Shown here in pieces: positions 1,492 through 61,415 of a DNA stretch of 64,000 nt (position 1 is its first letter; each line of letters starts with the position of its first letter). The translations under genes and the position numbers were made by a program. Below the pieces are notes generated by a model. The model did not search any database and was not told where the DNA came from. It saw nothing but the letters and a program-made list of their open reading frames with translations. The stretch is from Streptomyces sindenensis (lineage in GTDB: Bacteria; Actinomycetota; Actinomycetes; Streptomycetales; Streptomycetaceae): NCBI RefSeq assembly GCF_014649035.1, contig NZ_BMSG01000009.1, forward strand, positions 124,001 through 188,000, given 5' to 3'.

Positions 1492-2754
1492 TCAGCCGAG
1501 GCGCTTCGCCAGCTCGGCCTCGACCTCGGCCAGCGGCACCGCGCTCTGCTCGCCGGACTCCATGTCCTTGAGCTGGACGACGCCCTCGGCGAGATCGCGC
1601 TCGCCCGCGACCAGGGCGTAGCGCGCGCCCGAGCGGTTGGCGCTCTTCATCGCGCCCTTCAGGCCCCGGCCGCCGAACGCGAAGTCCGCGGCGATCCCCG
1701 CGCGGCGCAGCCCGGTGACGACGCCGAACAGCGCCCGGCGGGCCTCCTCGCCGAGCGGGACCGCGTACACGCTGGTGGTGTAGGGCAGGTCGAGCTCGAT
1801 GCCCTCGGCCTCCAGGGCGAGGACCGTGCGGTCCACACCGAGCGCCCAGCCGACGGACGGCAGCTCGGGGCCGCCGATCATCTCGGAGAGGCCGTCGTAG
1901 CGGCCGCCGCCGCCCACCGCGGACTGGGCGCCGAGACCGTCGTGGACGAACTCGAAGGTGGTGCGGGTGTAGTAGTCGAGGCCGCGCACCAGCTTCTCGT
2001 CGTCCTCGAAGACCACACCGGCGGCCGTGAGAAGCGCCCGGACCTCCTCGTGGTACGCCTTGCACGCGTCGCACAGGTAGTCGCGGAGCTTCGGGGCGTC
2101 GGTCAGCTGCTTCTGCACGTCGGCCCGCTTGTCGTCCAGCACACGCAGCGGGTTGATCTCGATGCGGCGGCGGGTCTCCTCGTCGAGGTCCAGGTCGCGC
2201 AGGAAGCTCTGGAGCGCCTCGCGGTAGACCGGGCGGCACTCCTTGTCGCCCAGCGAGTTCAGCAGGATGCGGAACTGCCGCAGGCCCAGCGAGCGGTACG
2301 CCTGGTCGGCGAGGATGATCAGCTCGGCGTCCAGGACCGGGTCCTCGGTGCCGATGGCCTCGGCGCCGACCTGCGAGAAGTGGCGGTAGCGGCCCGCCTG
2401 CGGGCGCTCGTAGCGGTAGTACGAGCCGGAGTACCAGAGCTTGACGGGGAGGTTGCCCGCCTTGTGGAGGTTGGCCTCCAGGGCCGCGCGGAGCACGGAC
2501 GCGGTCCCCTCGGGGCGCAGCGCCAGCTGGTCGCCGCCCTTGGTGGTGAGGGTGTACATCTCCTTGGTGACGATGTCGGTGGACTCACCGACACCGCGGG
2601 CGAAGAGCTCGACGTTCTCGAAGCCGGGCGTCTCGATGTAGCCGTAGCCGGAGTCGCGCAGCGGGGCCGCGATGGCCTCGCGCACCGCGAGGAACGTCGC
2701 GGAACGGGGCGGGGTCAGGTCGTACGTGCCCTTGGGGGCCTGAAAGGTGCTCAC
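1492..2754 (-). CDS. hisS: Histidyl-tRNA synthetase
   Basis: HisRS charges tRNA-His in the cytoplasm. The 420-residue product begins [14 protein letters not shown], as bacterial HisRS does. It shows class II motif 2 ([13 protein letters not shown], about residues 77-90), the HisA motif [13 protein letters not shown] near residue 255, motif 3 ([14 protein letters not shown] and [11 protein letters not shown]), and a C-terminal anticodon-binding domain. The reading frame stays open far upstream, but the GTG at 2754 matches the family N terminus. The ribosome site is weak (GAGAGACG). The gene sits 17 bases behind the metallo-hydrolase gene and is probably co-transcribed with it. Confidence 0.96.
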
Positions 2755-43666: not shown

Positions 43667-43739
43667 GCGGACGTAGCTCAGTTGGTAGAGCGCAACCTTG
43701 CCAAGGTTGAGGTCGCCAGTTCGAACCTGGTCGTCCGCT
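43667..43739 (+). tRNA. tRNA-Gly (anticodon GCC)
   Basis: 73 bases. Acceptor GCGGACG/CGTCCGC, anticodon stem CAACC/GGTTG around TTGCCAA (anticodon GCC), T-loop TTCGAAC. First gene of a five-tRNA operon. Confidence 0.98.
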
Positions 43740-43777
43740 CGCAGAAGGTGGGGGATCCTTCCCGAGCCCCCACCCCT

Positions 43778-43848
43778 GGTGGAGTGGCCGAGAGGCGAGG
43801 CAACGGCCTGCAAAGCCGTCTACACGGGTTCAAATCCCGTCTCCACCT
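43778..43848 (+). tRNA. tRNA-Cys (anticodon GCA)
   Basis: 71 bases. Acceptor GGTGGAG/CTCCACC, anticodon stem ACGGC/GCCGT around CTGCAAA (anticodon GCA), T-loop TTCAAAT. Confidence 0.97.
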
Positions 43849-43852
43849 CCAA

Positions 43853-43924
43853 GGACGATTAGCTCAGCGGGAGAGCGCTTCCCTGACACGGAAGAGGTCA
43901 CTGGTTCAATCCCAGTATCGTCCA
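43853..43924 (+). tRNA. tRNA-Val (anticodon GAC), copy 1
   Basis: 72 bases. Acceptor GGACGAT/ATCGTCC, anticodon stem CTTCC/GGAAG around CTGACAC (anticodon GAC), T-loop TTCAATC. Starts 4 bases after tRNA-Cys. Confidence 0.97.
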
Positions 43925-43960
43925 CTGATCCGCAAGGATCATCGGTCCGCAAGGATCCCC

Positions 43961-44032
43961 GCGCGATTAGCTCAGCGGGAGAGCGCTTCCCTGACACGGA
44001 AGAGGTCACTGGTTCAATCCCAGTATCGCGCA
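43961..44032 (+). tRNA. tRNA-Val (anticodon GAC), copy 2
   Basis: 72 bases, the same as copy 1 except for the acceptor pairs (GCGCGAT/ATCGCGC). The spacer before it contains two copies of CCGCAAGGATC. Confidence 0.97.
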
Positions 44033-44065
44033 CGCAGTACACAGGCAGTAAACGCAGGTTCACCT

Positions 44066-44137
44066 GCGCGATTAGCTCAGCGGGAGAGCGCTTCCCTGAC
44101 ACGGAAGAGGTCACTGGTTCAATCCCAGTATCGCGCA
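44066..44137 (+). tRNA. tRNA-Val (anticodon GAC), copy 3
   Basis: 72 bases, identical to copy 2. Unlike the others it is followed by a genomic CCA (44138-44140). Last gene of the operon. Confidence 0.97.
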
Positions 44138-57313: not shown

Positions 57314-58180
57314 TCAGGACTTGGCGGGGGCGCCGAAGGCCGGGACGATCGAGCCCTGGTAGGTGTCCTCGATGAACTTCTTGACCTCGTCGGAGTTGAG
57401 GAGCTTCGCGAGCTTCTCGACGCGCGGGTCCTTCTCGTTGCCGTCCTTGACCGCCAGGAAGTTGGCGTACGGGTTGCCCTCGGCCTTCTCCAGGGCGATG
57501 GAGTCCTTGCCGGGCTCCAGCTCGGCCTCGATGGCGTAGTTGCCGTTGATGACGGCGGCGTCCACGTCGTTCAGGGCGCGGGGCACGGTGGCGGCCTCCA
57601 GCTCCTTGAACTCCAGGCCCTTCTTGTCGATGATGTCGCTCAGCTTGGCGCTGGTGCCGACGCCGTCCTTGAGGGTGATGAGGCCGTTCTCGGCGAGCAG
57701 CTGGAGTGCGCGGCCGCCGTTGGTGGTGTCGTTGGGGACGGCTATGGTCTGGCCGGCCTTGATGTCCTTGAGGTCCTTGACCTTGTTGGAGTAGAGGCCG
57801 AGCGGCTCCAGGTGGACGTCGACCACCGGGACGATGGTGGTCTTCTGCTTGGCGTTGAAGTCGTCCAGGTAGGGCTTGTGCTGGAAGAAGTTGGCGTCGA
57901 CCTGGCCGTTCTGGGTGGCGGTGTTCGGCAGGACGTAGTCCGTGAACTCCTTGACCTCCAGCTTGAGGCCTTCCTGGTCCGCCAGGTTCTTCTTGACGAA
58001 GTTCAGGATGTCGGCGTGGGGCGTCGGGGACGCGGCGACGACGAGGGCCTTGGAGGTGTCGGCGTTCGCGCCGGTCCCGCTCTTGGACGCCGGGTCGGAG
58101 GACGTACCGCAGGCGCTGAGGCCGATGGCGAGGGCGGCGGTGGCGGCGGCAGCCGCGGTGATCTTGATGTTCTTGCGCAC
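57314..58180 (-). CDS. metQ: D/L-methionine ABC transporter substrate-binding lipoprotein MetQ
   Basis: A 288-residue lipoprotein of the NlpA family. The signal peptide ends in the lipobox LSAC (Cys24). The binding domain starts VVAASPTPHADIL and contains NFFQHKPYLDDFN and VPNDTTNGGRALQLL, typical of methionine binders. GTG at 58180 with GAGG upstream. Last gene of metN-metI-metQ, about 86 bases after metI. Confidence 0.94.
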   Translation of the reverse strand: MRKNIKITAAAAATAALAIGLSACGTSSDPASKSGTGANADTSKALVVAASPTPHADILNFVKKNLADQEGLKLEVKEFTDYVLPNTATQNGQVDANFFQHKPYLDDFNAKQKTTIVPVVDVHLEPLGLYSNKVKDLKDIKAGQTIAVPNDTTNGGRALQLLAENGLITLKDGVGTSAKLSDIIDKKGLEFKELEAATVPRALNDVDAAVINGNYAIEAELEPGKDSIALEKAEGNPYANFLAVKDGNEKDPRVEKLAKLLNSDEVKKFIEDTYQGSIVPAFGAPAKS

Positions 58181-58266: not shown

Positions 58267-58938
58267 TCAGGAGGCGGTGCGGCCGCGGCGGGCCAGCAGC
58301 CGGACGGTGAGGTCGCCGATCAGCTGGATCACGGTGACGATGACGATCAGCAGCGCGACGGTGATCAGCATGAACTGGTTGTCGAAGCGCTGGAATCCGT
58401 AGGTGACGGCCTTGGAGCCGAGCCCTTCGCCGCCGACCGCACCGGCCATCGCGGAGTAGCCGATGAGCACGATGAGGGTGGTGGTGACGCCCGAGACGAG
58501 CGAGGGCAGGGCCTGTGGGAGGAGCACCTTGCGGACGATCGTGGGGATGGAGCCGCCCATCGACTGGACCGCTTCGACGAGCCCGTGGTCGACCTCGCGG
58601 ATCGCCGTCTCGACGAGCCGGGCGAAGAACGGGATGGCGCCGACGGCGAGCGGCACGATCATCGCGGTGGGGCCGATGAAGGTGCCGACGACCCAGGTGG
58701 TGAAGGGGATCAGGGCGATCAGCAGGATGATGAAGGGCAGCGAGCGGCCGATGTTCACGATCACGCCGATGACCTTGTTCACCACGGTGTTCTGGAGCAG
58801 TCCGCCCTTGTCGGTGAGGACCAGCAGTACACCGAGCGGCAGTCCGCCGACGACGGTGACCAGGGCGGACCACAGCACCATGTAGAGGGTGTCGTAGGTG
58901 CCCTGGGTCAGCAGGGGCTGCATCTCGGACCAGGTCAC
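58267..58938 (-). CDS. metI: Methionine ABC transporter permease MetI
   Basis: A 223-residue permease with about five helices. GTYDTLYMVLWSALVTVVGG and the ABC-interacting EAA loop region (GLVEAVQSMGGSIPTIVRKV) are clear. GTG at 58938 overlaps the metN stop (GTGA) and has a strong AAGGAGG site. Confidence 0.95.
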   Translation of the reverse strand: MTWSEMQPLLTQGTYDTLYMVLWSALVTVVGGLPLGVLLVLTDKGGLLQNTVVNKVIGVIVNIGRSLPFIILLIALIPFTTWVVGTFIGPTAMIVPLAVGAIPFFARLVETAIREVDHGLVEAVQSMGGSIPTIVRKVLLPQALPSLVSGVTTTLIVLIGYSAMAGAVGGEGLGSKAVTYGFQRFDNQFMLITVALLIVIVTVIQLIGDLTVRLLARRGRTAS

Positions 58939-60014
58939 TTGACGACCTCCTTGGTGATCGCGGCGGGCGTCTGCTCCGGTACGAGGGGGGCGGCGGCGGT
59001 CGCGGCGCTCCCGCCGTCGACGACCTCGGCCTGGAGGCCCTGCTCACGGAGGAAACCGATGGGGACGACGTTCTCCTCGAACCGGCCGGGCAGTTCGATG
59101 CGCATCCGGCCGATCTGCTTGCCGCCGACGGTGTCCATCGCGGCGCCGAGGATCGAGATGTCGATGTTGTACGTCCGCGAGAGCTGGGAGATGACCGGCT
59201 GGGAGGCCGACTCCCCGTGGAAGGTGACGTCGACGACCGTGCGGTCCGGGCCGGAGGCGGTCCCGCCGACCGGGAACAGCTCGTCGGCCAGTTCGGAGCC
59301 GGGGGTGGCGAGGAGTTCGCCGACGGTCCCGGACTCGACGATCCGGCCGCGCCGCATGAGCGCGGCGGAGTCGCAGATGGTCTTCACCACGTCCATCTCG
59401 TGGGTGATGAGCAGGACGGTGAGGCCGAGCTGCTGGTTGAGGTCGCGCAGCAACTGGAGGATGGAGCGGGTGGTCTCGGGGTCGAGCGCGGAGGTCGCCT
59501 CGTCGGAGAGCAGCACCTGGGGGTCGCCCGCGAGGGCGCGGGCTATGCCCACGCGCTGCTTCTGGCCGCCGGAGAGCTGGCCGGGGTAGGACTTCGCCTT
59601 GTCGGCGAGACCGACCAGGTCCAGCAGCTCCCTGGCCTTGCGGGTGCGCGCCTGGCCGGAGACGCCGAGGATCTCCAGGGGCAGTTCGATGTTGTCCAGG
59701 ACGGTGCGGGAGTCCAGCAGGTTGAAGTGCTGGAAGACCATGCCGATGCGGGTGCGCGCCCGGCGCAGCTCGGCGCTCGCCCGCCGGCCGCGGCCGGCGA
59801 GGGCGGTGAGGTCCTGGCCGGCCACCGTGACGGTGCCGGAGGTGGGGCGTTCCAGGAGGTTGACGCAGCGGATGAGGGAGGACTTGCCGGCGCCGCTCTG
59901 TCCGATGACGCCGTACACCTCGCCTTCGCGGACGTGCAGGTCGACGCCGTCGAGTGCGGTGACCTCACGGTCGCGCGACTGGTAGACCTTCGTGAGGCCC
60001 GTCGTGGTGATCAC
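58935..60014 (-). CDS. metN: Methionine ABC transporter ATPase MetN
   Basis: A 359-residue ATPase. Walker A GQSGAGKSS (38-46), signature LSGGQKQRVGIARALA, Walker B VLLSDEATSALD, and the C-terminal NIL regulatory domain (VVDVTFHGESASQPVISQL) that senses methionine. GTG at 60014. First gene of metNIQ; a leader peptide ORF and a palindrome lie upstream. Confidence 0.95.
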   Translation of the reverse strand: MITTTGLTKVYQSRDREVTALDGVDLHVREGEVYGVIGQSGAGKSSLIRCVNLLERPTSGTVTVAGQDLTALAGRGRRASAELRRARTRIGMVFQHFNLLDSRTVLDNIELPLEILGVSGQARTRKARELLDLVGLADKAKSYPGQLSGGQKQRVGIARALAGDPQVLLSDEATSALDPETTRSILQLLRDLNQQLGLTVLLITHEMDVVKTICDSAALMRRGRIVESGTVGELLATPGSELADELFPVGGTASGPDRTVVDVTFHGESASQPVISQLSRTYNIDISILGAAMDTVGGKQIGRMRIELPGRFEENVVPIGFLREQGLQAEVVDGGSAATAAAPLVPEQTPAAITKEVVK

Positions 60015-60230
60015 AGGGGGTTTCCGTCACTGTCGAGTGCGCGGCGCGGTGTCCGCCGGGCACGGGGCATTCGTCGAGGAGACTGTTCGGGCTGGTGGGC
60101 CGGAGGATGTCTCGGCATGGCTCGGGCGGCGATCGGCCGGGGCGGCACATGCGCGGGCAGGCTCGTTCCAGGGACTGCGAACGGCACAGGCTCGGTCTCG
60201 CTTCGGGGCGCGAGGCTCAGGCGGGGGCCC

Positions 60231-60317
60231 TCAGAAGGCGCGCATTCGACACATACAACGAGCACCGGGCGTGCTGATCGCCTCGGTCGCAAGGGTGCGG
60301 CTGCTCGTCGTGGTCAT
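60231..60317 (-). CDS. Candidate Cys/Met leader peptide of metNIQ
   Basis: A 28-codon ORF ending 217 bases before metN. It starts MTTTSSRTLATEAISTPGA and ends RCMCRMRAF, so two Cys (both TGT) and two Met codons are packed into the last eight residues, alongside CGT and CGA, which are uncommon in this DNA. A GTTTTACTT stretch 4-12 bases before the ATG suggests a leaderless start. The layout fits an attenuator that senses charged tRNA-Cys or tRNA-Met. No database check was possible. Confidence 0.55.
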   Translation of the reverse strand: MTTTSSRTLATEAISTPGARCMCRMRAF

Positions 60318-60355
60318 GGGCCAAGTAAAACAGACGTGAGGTCGCGGCGATCCCG

Positions 60356-60376
60356 ACTGTCCGCATAGCGGACAGT
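60356..60376. promoter_or_regulatory. Palindromic operator candidate upstream of the met leader
   Basis: ACTGTCCGC and GCGGACAGT form a perfect 9-bp inverted repeat with a 3-base centre (ATA). It lies about 39 bases upstream of the leader ORF start, where an activator would bind. TGTCCGC/GCGGACA arms recall operators of IclR-family regulators; that link is inference. Confidence 0.55.
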
Positions 60377-60598
60377 GCTGGATGGTCGGACGCTCGCCTT
60401 CCGGTACAGCCGAACAGCTCGACTCGTACGGCTTTGACCTGCGATGACGGGCCGGATTCGGGGGTGCATCCGGTGGCGCCCGCACCGCCGGGGAGCGGAA
60501 CCTCGCCCCCCGGTTGTGTTCAAGGCCACCCCTGCGCGGCCGGGGCGCCGGCCGCCCGGGCGGGGGCCGGGGCCGCACGCGGGCGGGCGTTCCGTCCG

Positions 60599-60604
60599 TA
60601 ATAC
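60599..60604 (+). promoter_or_regulatory. -10 element, leaderless start of the 119-residue membrane protein
   Basis: TAATAC ends 9 bases before the ATG at 60614; no ribosome site lies between, so the mRNA probably begins at or near the start codon. Confidence 0.45.
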
Positions 60605-60613
60605 CCTCGACTC

Positions 60614-60973
60614 ATGCTTGACGCCCTGACGGTCGCGGTCGCCGTGACCGCGCTCGCCCTCGCCGCCTGGTGCGGACATGCCGCCTACCGGGACCAGCCG
60701 ACGAAGGACTGGCATTTCATCGGGATGGCGGTCGTCTCCGTGCTGGCGCTGGCCCAGTTGGTGGTGGGCGTCGTGCAGCTGGCGCGCGGGGAGCGGCCGG
60801 AGCAGGGGATGGCGGTGTTCATCGCCTATCTGATCGGTTCGTTCGCCGCCGTGCCCGCGGCCGGATTCCTGTCGTTGACCGAGCGGACCCGCTGGGGCTC
60901 GGTCACGGTGGCGGCGGGCGCGGTGGTGCTGGCGGTTCTGGAGGTCCGGCTCTATGACATCTGGGGAAACTGA
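60614..60973 (+). CDS. Small four-helix membrane protein
   Basis: A 119-residue protein with four predicted helices: ALTVAVAVTALALAAWCG, FIGMAVVSVLALAQLVVGVV, VFIAYLIGSFAAVPAAGFLS, and VTVAAGAVVLAVLEVRL. Function unknown. Probably leaderless. It is followed at once by another membrane protein gene and is likely co-transcribed with it. Confidence 0.78.
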   Translation: MLDALTVAVAVTALALAAWCGHAAYRDQPTKDWHFIGMAVVSVLALAQLVVGVVQLARGERPEQGMAVFIAYLIGSFAAVPAAGFLSLTERTRWGSVTVAAGAVVLAVLEVRLYDIWGN

Positions 60974-60974
60974 C

Positions 60975-61415
60975 GTGAGCGACACCGACCGCCCCGAGGT
61001 GGCCGCGGACCCGAAGCCGGCGTTCGAGCTGGGCACCGGGCCCGGGCGGGTCCTGGTCTGGTTCTACGGGGTGTTCACGGTCGCGGCGGCCTCGCGCTCG
61101 ATCGTCCAGATGATCGTGGACTTCGACCGGGCGCCGCTGGCGTACGTGCTCTCGGCCGTGGCGGCCGTGGTGTACGGCTTCATCACGTACTCGCTGGTGC
61201 GCGGCGGGGAGAAGGCCCGCCGCGCGGCGCTGGTGTGCTGCGCGGCGGAGCTGCTGGGCGTGCTGGTCGTCGGCGCGTGGACGCTGGCCGAGCCGACCGC
61301 GTTCCCGGACGCGACGGTGTGGTCGGACTTCGGAATGGGGTACCTCTTCATCCCGGTGATCCTGCCGGTCACCGGGATGCTCTGGCTGCGCCGCGCGAAG
61401 ACGGTGACGATCTGA
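60975..61415 (+). CDS. Small membrane protein, partner of the preceding gene
   Basis: A 146-residue protein with an acidic N terminus (SDTDRPEVAADPKPAFELG) and four predicted helices (VLVWFYGVFTVAAASRSIV, AYVLSAVAAVVYGFITYSL, LVCCAAELLGVLVVGAWTL, GYLFIPVILPVTGMLWL). Function unknown. GTG at 60975 has GGGGAAAC upstream and lies one base past the previous stop; ATG at 60954 would overlap it. Confidence 0.78.
   Translation: MSDTDRPEVAADPKPAFELGTGPGRVLVWFYGVFTVAAASRSIVQMIVDFDRAPLAYVLSAVAAVVYGFITYSLVRGGEKARRAALVCCAAELLGVLVVGAWTLAEPTAFPDATVWSDFGMGYLFIPVILPVTGMLWLRRAKTVTI

Follow-up and report, generated by a model that had tools for sequence, protein, structure and literature searches.

The window analysed here, a stretch of 64,000 nucleotides from Streptomyces sindenensis, contains a short open reading frame (ORF) directly before the methionine importer operon metNIQ. 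This raises the question of whether the ORF adjusts the expression of the importer to the supply of sulphur amino acids, and by which mechanism. The ORF, an orthologue of metL, occupies positions 60231..60317 on the minus strand and encodes MTTTSSRTLATEAISTPGARCMCRMRAF* (28 codons plus TGA). Cys21, Met22, Cys23 and Met25 are located near its end, which reads TGT ATG TGT CGA ATG CGC GCC TTC TGA. An earlier note, made from the DNA letters, had interpreted the ORF as a leader peptide acting by translational attenuation through cysteine or methionine supply; translation of 60317..60231 on the minus strand confirms the coordinates, length and codons given there.

The GTG start codon of metN lies 303 nt past the start of the leader ORF and 219 nt past its stop codon. 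metN (58935..60014, minus strand) encodes an ATPase with ABC_tran and NIL domains, metI (58267..58938, minus strand) a permease (BPD_transp_1), and metQ (57314..58150, minus strand, 5' boundary approximate) an NlpA-type binding lipoprotein. The Shine-Dalgarno core of metN, ACGGA, is found at 60023..60027 on the minus strand. The available part of an oxidative stress study in S. coelicolor lists metQ, metI and metN as 2.26-, 3.51- and 5.24-fold up, respectively (PMC4991794). Two small ORFs on the plus strand (60614-60973 and 60954-61415) are divergent from metN and have no Pfam match. Five tRNA genes are clustered at 43667-44137 (plus strand) of the window.

Conservation of the Leader

The leader is present in 154 of the 155 full-length Streptomycetaceae metN upstream regions examined, and its ORF, reading frame, Cys/Met-rich end and promoter are conserved across the family. 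The alignment of metN upstream regions that the earlier note had proposed thus reveals a conserved ORF with conserved Cys/Met codons, rather than the lack of conservation that it had named as evidence against attenuation. In 117 distinct peptides (start Met excluded), the last 12 positions hold 330 cysteines and 210 methionines among 1404 residues, compared with 42 and 67 among the 1823 residues outside them. The Cys/Met-rich end before metN is therefore real and exceeds what chance would give. Both amino acids occur within the last 12 residues of 116/117 peptides. At least two cysteines are found there in 112/117 and at least two methionines in 85/117, with a single Met in 31 and none in one (L120).

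These numbers derive from 174 metN upstream regions in total, with L132 and L137 left out since their metN match starts late. Seventeen contigs (L031-L047) were used from the best 80 of 591, and the remaining regions came from further genomes. A genus search detected metN in 286/295 genomes; since the 30 best of these and a divergent set were used, the sampling of regions is not random. Leaders were defined by a promoter-plus-ATG pattern with 14-45 codons, which gave 153 leaders, 150 of them distinct from the ATG to 75 nt past the stop. Among the 21 regions outside this pattern, three are truncated at the end of a contig (L116, L123 and L232, the last also from another family), and a further 16 come from other families (L046, L151-L164 and L227). 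The two remaining family members are L223, with a 50-codon leader, and L193, which has lost the 5' part.

Within the family, a more distant example is the Kitasatospora leader L043, MTTTTTCIPTGATPAGERRMCRRMRRMCCR. In another family, Actinomadura rubrisoli (L046) has an ORF ending in RMCCRRMCDR that matches the full leader model with E 2.4e-17 in a search of 22 fetched loci, and the same search gave no match up to E 1 for L151-L164 and L227. Short Met/Cys-rich ORFs are nevertheless seen before metN in three of these loci from another actinomycete family (L151, L152 and L155), for example MTPQGRVMCRGMRRCGTSRMCAMGGMPSMR. The promoter pattern is absent before them, and they are possibly parallel leaders.

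A search of 79 genomes of the class gave strong leader matches in the five Streptomyces only, together with three weak ones (E 0.0015-0.008). In the S. sindenensis genome itself, the metN copy alone scores well (E 3e-36); second copies before other genes were considered and rejected, the next match having E 0.38. Of the 32 family genomes without a metN match, 18 were searched, and 16 of these gave no leader match at E 0.01 or better. L256 carries a strong leader match (E 4e-38) followed by a metN ORF (1898..2566) whose end, judged by eye, is the C-terminus of MetQ; this operon has apparently decayed by internal deletion. L257 has a weak leader match (E 0.003) and no metN.

Promoter and Upstream Region

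An extended -10 promoter-like element, TG-T-TTTACT (60324..60332, minus strand), is situated 6 nt before the leader ATG. Across the 153 leaders, the spacing between a TG-n-TTTACT-like element and the ATG is 6 or 7 nt, where the search pattern allowed 4-8 nt. This spacing fits a leaderless start, as reported for S. lividans, on which the proposed mechanism builds.

A palindrome, GTCCGCTATGCGGAC (60359..60373), lies 41 nt before the ATG. Its pattern GTCC-N7-GGAC occurs within 110 nt in 118/153 leaders, where its frequency in the fetched loci would predict about 4. The palindrome ends 41-44 nt before the ATG in 71 leaders, 51-53 nt in 46 and 63 nt in one, so that the two main positions are about one helical turn apart, as might be expected for a regulator bound on one face of the DNA. 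The palindrome is probably a regulator site, and its half-sites are NdgR-like: they are the same as those of reported NdgR sites such as GTCCACCACGCGGAC (PMC4340878). The main text of that ChIP study, in the part available, contains no mention of metN, SCO1559 or SCO1557, and NdgR binding at metN is put forward only as a lead. The palindrome is located in the intergenic region common to the metN side and the two divergent ORFs.

Reading Frame and Codon Choice

The reading frame of the leader appears to be under selection. In 146/146 regions, counted with no ORF required, the distance from the ATG to CGAATG takes 11 values between 66 and 135 nt, all of which are multiples of three, and from the start of CGAATG to the first in-frame stop it is always 12 or 15 nt. 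That 11 distinct lengths all keep the frame indicates that the frame is selected; such an outcome is unlikely by chance, with the limit that related sequences are not independent. On this sequence evidence, the leader ORF is translated.

The codons near the end are uncommon ones, as the earlier note had remarked. In metN of the fetched loci, cysteine is encoded by TGC 227 times and by TGT 7 times, and CGA accounts for 59 of 3395 arginine codons. In the 69 Streptomyces leaders of 28 codons, these rare codons are fixed: position 24 is CGA in 66/66 cases of Arg, and TGT is used in 60 of the 62 cysteines at position 21 and 59 of the 61 at position 23. CGA directly precedes the last inner ATG in 149/152 leaders, and this ATG is 4 codons from the stop in 137/152. 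When the same residue is compared between sequences, the codon is identical in 0.97 of pairs in the 69 leaders, versus 0.71 at conserved positions within metN codons 4-70. Position 9 holds Leu, Pro, Arg or Cys, yet its codons mostly share a T as third base. These patterns show that the RNA, and not the codons alone, is under selection.

Predicted RNA Structures

The ORF is predicted to fold into a three-way junction. Its closing helix P1 is formed by ACGACGAGC (60303..60311, codons 3-5) and GCUCGUUGU (60255..60263, codons 19-21), the latter having the metN Shine-Dalgarno region as an alternative partner. The two enclosed hairpins are P2, CGCA-CCCU-UGCG (60288..60299), and P3, ACCG-A-GGCG ... 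CGCC-CGGU (60264..60287), all on the minus strand. In an alignment of 75 of the 76 distinct sequences (L196 was left out because of an insertion), 95.2% of the cells of P1-P3 are paired. Double-changed cells number 45 versus 10.2 in shuffles, with 0/500 shuffles reaching the observed value, and slid versions give 5 to 21. One pair of P1, for example, changes from GC to AU in 15 sequences. Further pair types are not clearly above shuffles (72/500). A version slid by -2 has more double-changed pairs (9 vs 7) and pair types (23 vs 20) than the unslid junction, but only 40.6% of its cells are paired. RNAalifold on the alignment of the ORF alone predicts P3 and not P1. These results, obtained with shuffles that ignore relatedness, give strong support rather than proof for a covarying junction.

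A further conserved hairpin, CUCGC-GCCCCGAA-GCGAG (60197..60214, minus strand), lies shortly after the leader stop. Its sequence is kept in many leaders and also in Actinomadura L046, and in the RNAalifold prediction the CCC of its loop pairs with GGG directly after the leader stop.

Minimum free energy folding of the window RNA returned, unasked, both the junction and a long-range helix, P4; the whole fold has a z of -1.8, and 2/100 shuffles are as low. The 5' strand of P4, UGUCGA-A-UGCGC (60240..60251), comprises codons Cys23-Arg24-Met25-Arg26 and thus holds the near-invariant CGA-AUG. Its 3' strand, GCGCA-C-UCGACA (60031..60042), ends 3 nt before the metN Shine-Dalgarno, both strands being on the minus strand. 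The register was tested by anchoring on CGNATG and the Shine-Dalgarno, which was possible in 147/153 leaders; L120 was left out for lack of CGNATG, and L184, L217, L234, L235 and L236 for lack of a matched Shine-Dalgarno. In 67 distinct Streptomyces-type sequences, the P4 register scores 8.92 of 12, versus a mean of 4.29 (sd 0.86) over 70 registers. The same register is found in a sister group of 19 sequences, with 8.97 against a mean of 4.36 (sd 1.07). It is not among the best six in 33 distinct sequences filed as Kitasatospora-like, a grouping set by peptide pattern in which some rows are misfiled (e.g. L128, L129 and L198 among the Kitasatospora-like).

The cells of P4 are 85% paired, compared with 16-48% in slid versions. 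Row shuffles, however, pair 84.8% against 85.1% observed, so there is no clear covariation in P4. Shuffles reach the observed pairing in 44/300 cases for both groups together, in 8/300 for Streptomyces alone and in 300/300 for the sister group. Since redealt partners pair as well, P4 is to be read as complementarity between two conserved stretches and not as covariation. Group-wise RNAalifold, which took 40 of 57, 14 and 8 sequences, recovers the UGUCG-CGACA part of P4 in both the Streptomyces-type and the sister group; again in both, it matches the GCGCA half of the 3' strand to a stretch that lies close by on the upstream side. In a run on 33 sequences of all groups, the leader-end GUCG pairs instead with codons 3-4 (31-33/33 at four of five pairs). 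This pairing could represent the competing conformation of a switch, or else indicate that the main fold is one other than P4.

Codons 19-21 and the Shine-Dalgarno can form a weaker helix, which beats shuffles in Streptomyces (0/300) and does not in the sister group (299/300). It was rejected as a unique register, since the version slid by +3 pairs 79% of cells, compared with 87%. The duplex energy between the leader end and the metN leader (mean z -0.93, 17/153 below -2) was likewise discarded as a test of P4: such values are unexceptional for RNA this GC-rich and therefore uninformative.

The near-invariant CGA extends to the Kitasatospora-like leaders, although P4 is not seen in them; its conservation is not fully explained by pairing.

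To estimate what a leader ribosome would do to this fold, a footprint of 28 nt was forced single-stranded at successive positions in 117 leaders, one per distinct peptide. The mean accessibility of the Shine-Dalgarno rises from 0.355 to 0.397-0.402 with the footprint at -30 to -10 nt from the leader stop; it is 0.374 with the footprint at the stop and 0.334-0.361 elsewhere. With footprints at -30 to -10, the gain exceeds 0.1 in only 28-29% of leaders, and with the footprint at -60, 16% of sequences gain more than 0.1 though the mean falls. For the copy in the window, accessibility increases from 0.31 to 0.51 with the footprint at -10 and to 0.46 at -60. Over the whole ribosome-binding region the change is about 0.01.

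Proposed Mechanism

No intrinsic terminator is apparent before metN: the longest T run there is at most 4 in 153/153 leaders. The sole terminator-like site in window positions 59900-60700 sits inside the ORF and was rejected. Because an intrinsic terminator is missing and the leader codons are predicted to pair with the ribosome-binding region of metN, we favor a translational over a transcriptional form of attenuation. The conserved ORF, its frame and its Cys/Met-rich end also speak for attenuation, and we infer, as the earlier note did, that the metL leader is probably a translational attenuator of metNIQ.

We propose that transcription starts at or beside the leader ATG and that ribosomes translate the 28 codons. 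When Cys-tRNA and Met-tRNA are ample, the ribosomes would finish and leave, and the RNA of the ORF would refold into the junction P1-P3. The Cys-Arg-Met codons could then pair just 5' of the metN Shine-Dalgarno through P4, whose presumed function would be to keep metN poorly translated. When Cys, or Cys together with Met, is short, a ribosome would stall on codons 21-26 and probably cover the P4 strand as well as the 3' strand of P1, which would leave the metN ribosome-binding site exposed. The upstream palindrome is probably the site of a further control by a regulator, which may be NdgR.

A more specific version of this scheme can be put forward tentatively. The leader may be a combined Cys-plus-Met sensor, with UGU and AUG codons around the rare CGA setting the exact position of the ribosome; its read-out would be a competition between the junction and a helix of about 11 pairs that spans roughly 200 nt and occludes the metN start region. 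If this holds, the near-invariance of CGA in leaders without a visible P4 would imply that the sensor relies in part on slow decoding of CGA.

As to the signal, cysteine is kept as well as methionine (at least two in 112/117 peptides), and 'methionine-dependent', the label under which metL was published, is therefore not the sole reading. From the peptide sequences, Cys alone or Cys plus Met appears to fit at least as well. Methionine would, moreover, be an awkward signal, as its starvation would be expected to lower initiation at the leader itself. Transsulfuration links cysteine and methionine; through this pathway, a Met importer whose leader senses Cys would couple the two amino acids. Sulphur amino acid import in antibiotic-producing Streptomyces appears to be set by the supply of charged tRNA, by way of a leaderless mini-gene.

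Alternative Explanations

A less likely but still credible explanation is transcriptional attenuation without an intrinsic terminator, in which the C-rich RNA would let Rho enter and termination before metN would depend on where the leader ribosome stands. In the 153 sequences, the RNA between the leader stop and metN has a mean content of 46% C and 29% G, a putative C excess in view of the GC-rich leaders of these genomes. A precedent in tuberculosis is indicated by a title, and the S. lividans authors, in the text available, also left termination open (PMC8079986). Rho-dependent attenuation leaves the complementarity to the Shine-Dalgarno flank unexplained.

That the conserved RNA acts as a riboswitch with a ligand such as SAM or methionine, the ORF being secondary, is improbable. 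The strong synonymous constraint (0.97 versus 0.71 identical codons) and the compact three-way junction with conserved nucleotides would suit such an RNA. However, the frame is kept while the ATG-to-CGAATG distance varies over 66-135 nt, and the Cys/Met codons are kept in Kitasatospora-like genomes with a different predicted fold. In addition, no Rfam family reaches its gathering score at the leader; with the covariance models for SAM and other riboswitches and the Streptomyces-metH/metK RNA included, only seven tRNAs reach gathering scores in the window.

A functional small protein, such as a metal- or thiol-binding one, is very improbable despite the conserved Cys-rich end (at least two Cys in the last 12 residues of 112/117 distinct peptides), since residues vary at positions 8, 9, 14, 15 and 26, at positions 8/9 it is the second base that changes (ACC/ATC/AGC; CTT/CCT/CGT) and the third that is nearly constant, opposite to what protein selection would produce, the tail varies in length, and an NCBIfam search with the peptide returned no family.

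Comparison with Known Leader Peptides

The earlier note implied that this exact leader had not been described, which proved incorrect. The orthologue in S. lividans TK24 is metL (SLIV_29928), which is given in Table 4 of PMC8079986 as a methionine-dependent attenuator, and a leaderless start was assigned to it there by 5'-end RNA-seq. The S. lividans peptide, MSTTSDRTPATEATTTPGARCMCRRMCAF, is closely similar and occupies the same place directly before metN. The accessible part of that paper describes it with 'several methionines and threonines' and unclear termination, and includes no role for Cys, RNA model or comparison of sequences. In the open-licence PMC literature, viewed mostly as titles and the beginnings of abstracts, no other study was recognised as treating this metN leader. 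As far as that literature goes, the leader element is already known; what the present comparison adds is the three-way junction and P4, together with the test of the reading frame and the constraint on CGA-AUG.

Candidate cys leader peptides have been reported in Mycobacterium, Propionibacterium and Bifidobacterium (PMC1262725). According to the portion of this survey available, they resemble the metL leader in having Cys codons near the stop and no terminator found, and differ in that they precede cys/cbs genes, unlike the metL leader before metN. For the upstream regions of actinobacterial methionine operons, the same portion reports no conserved RNA structures.

A further parallel in description is provided by the mycobacterial polycysteine leaderless short ORFs (Canestrari et al. 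2020), which act by translational attenuation in response to Cys supply (PMC9031893, PMC13236596 and PMC9094748, with a forerunner in PMC4633059). In the texts available, the tested examples of Cys-responsive leaderless ORFs are mycobacterial. Both they and the metL leader, with its leaderless start as reported for S. lividans, are short ORFs with Cys codons before sulphur genes, and the two are likened by this description and not by sequence kinship. The mycobacterial ORFs contain contiguous Cys and precede Cys-related genes, whereas here Cys alternates with Met and Arg before a Met importer. The copy in the window has no contiguous Cys, Met being placed between (CMCRM), and some relatives, such as L214, have two or three adjacent Cys.
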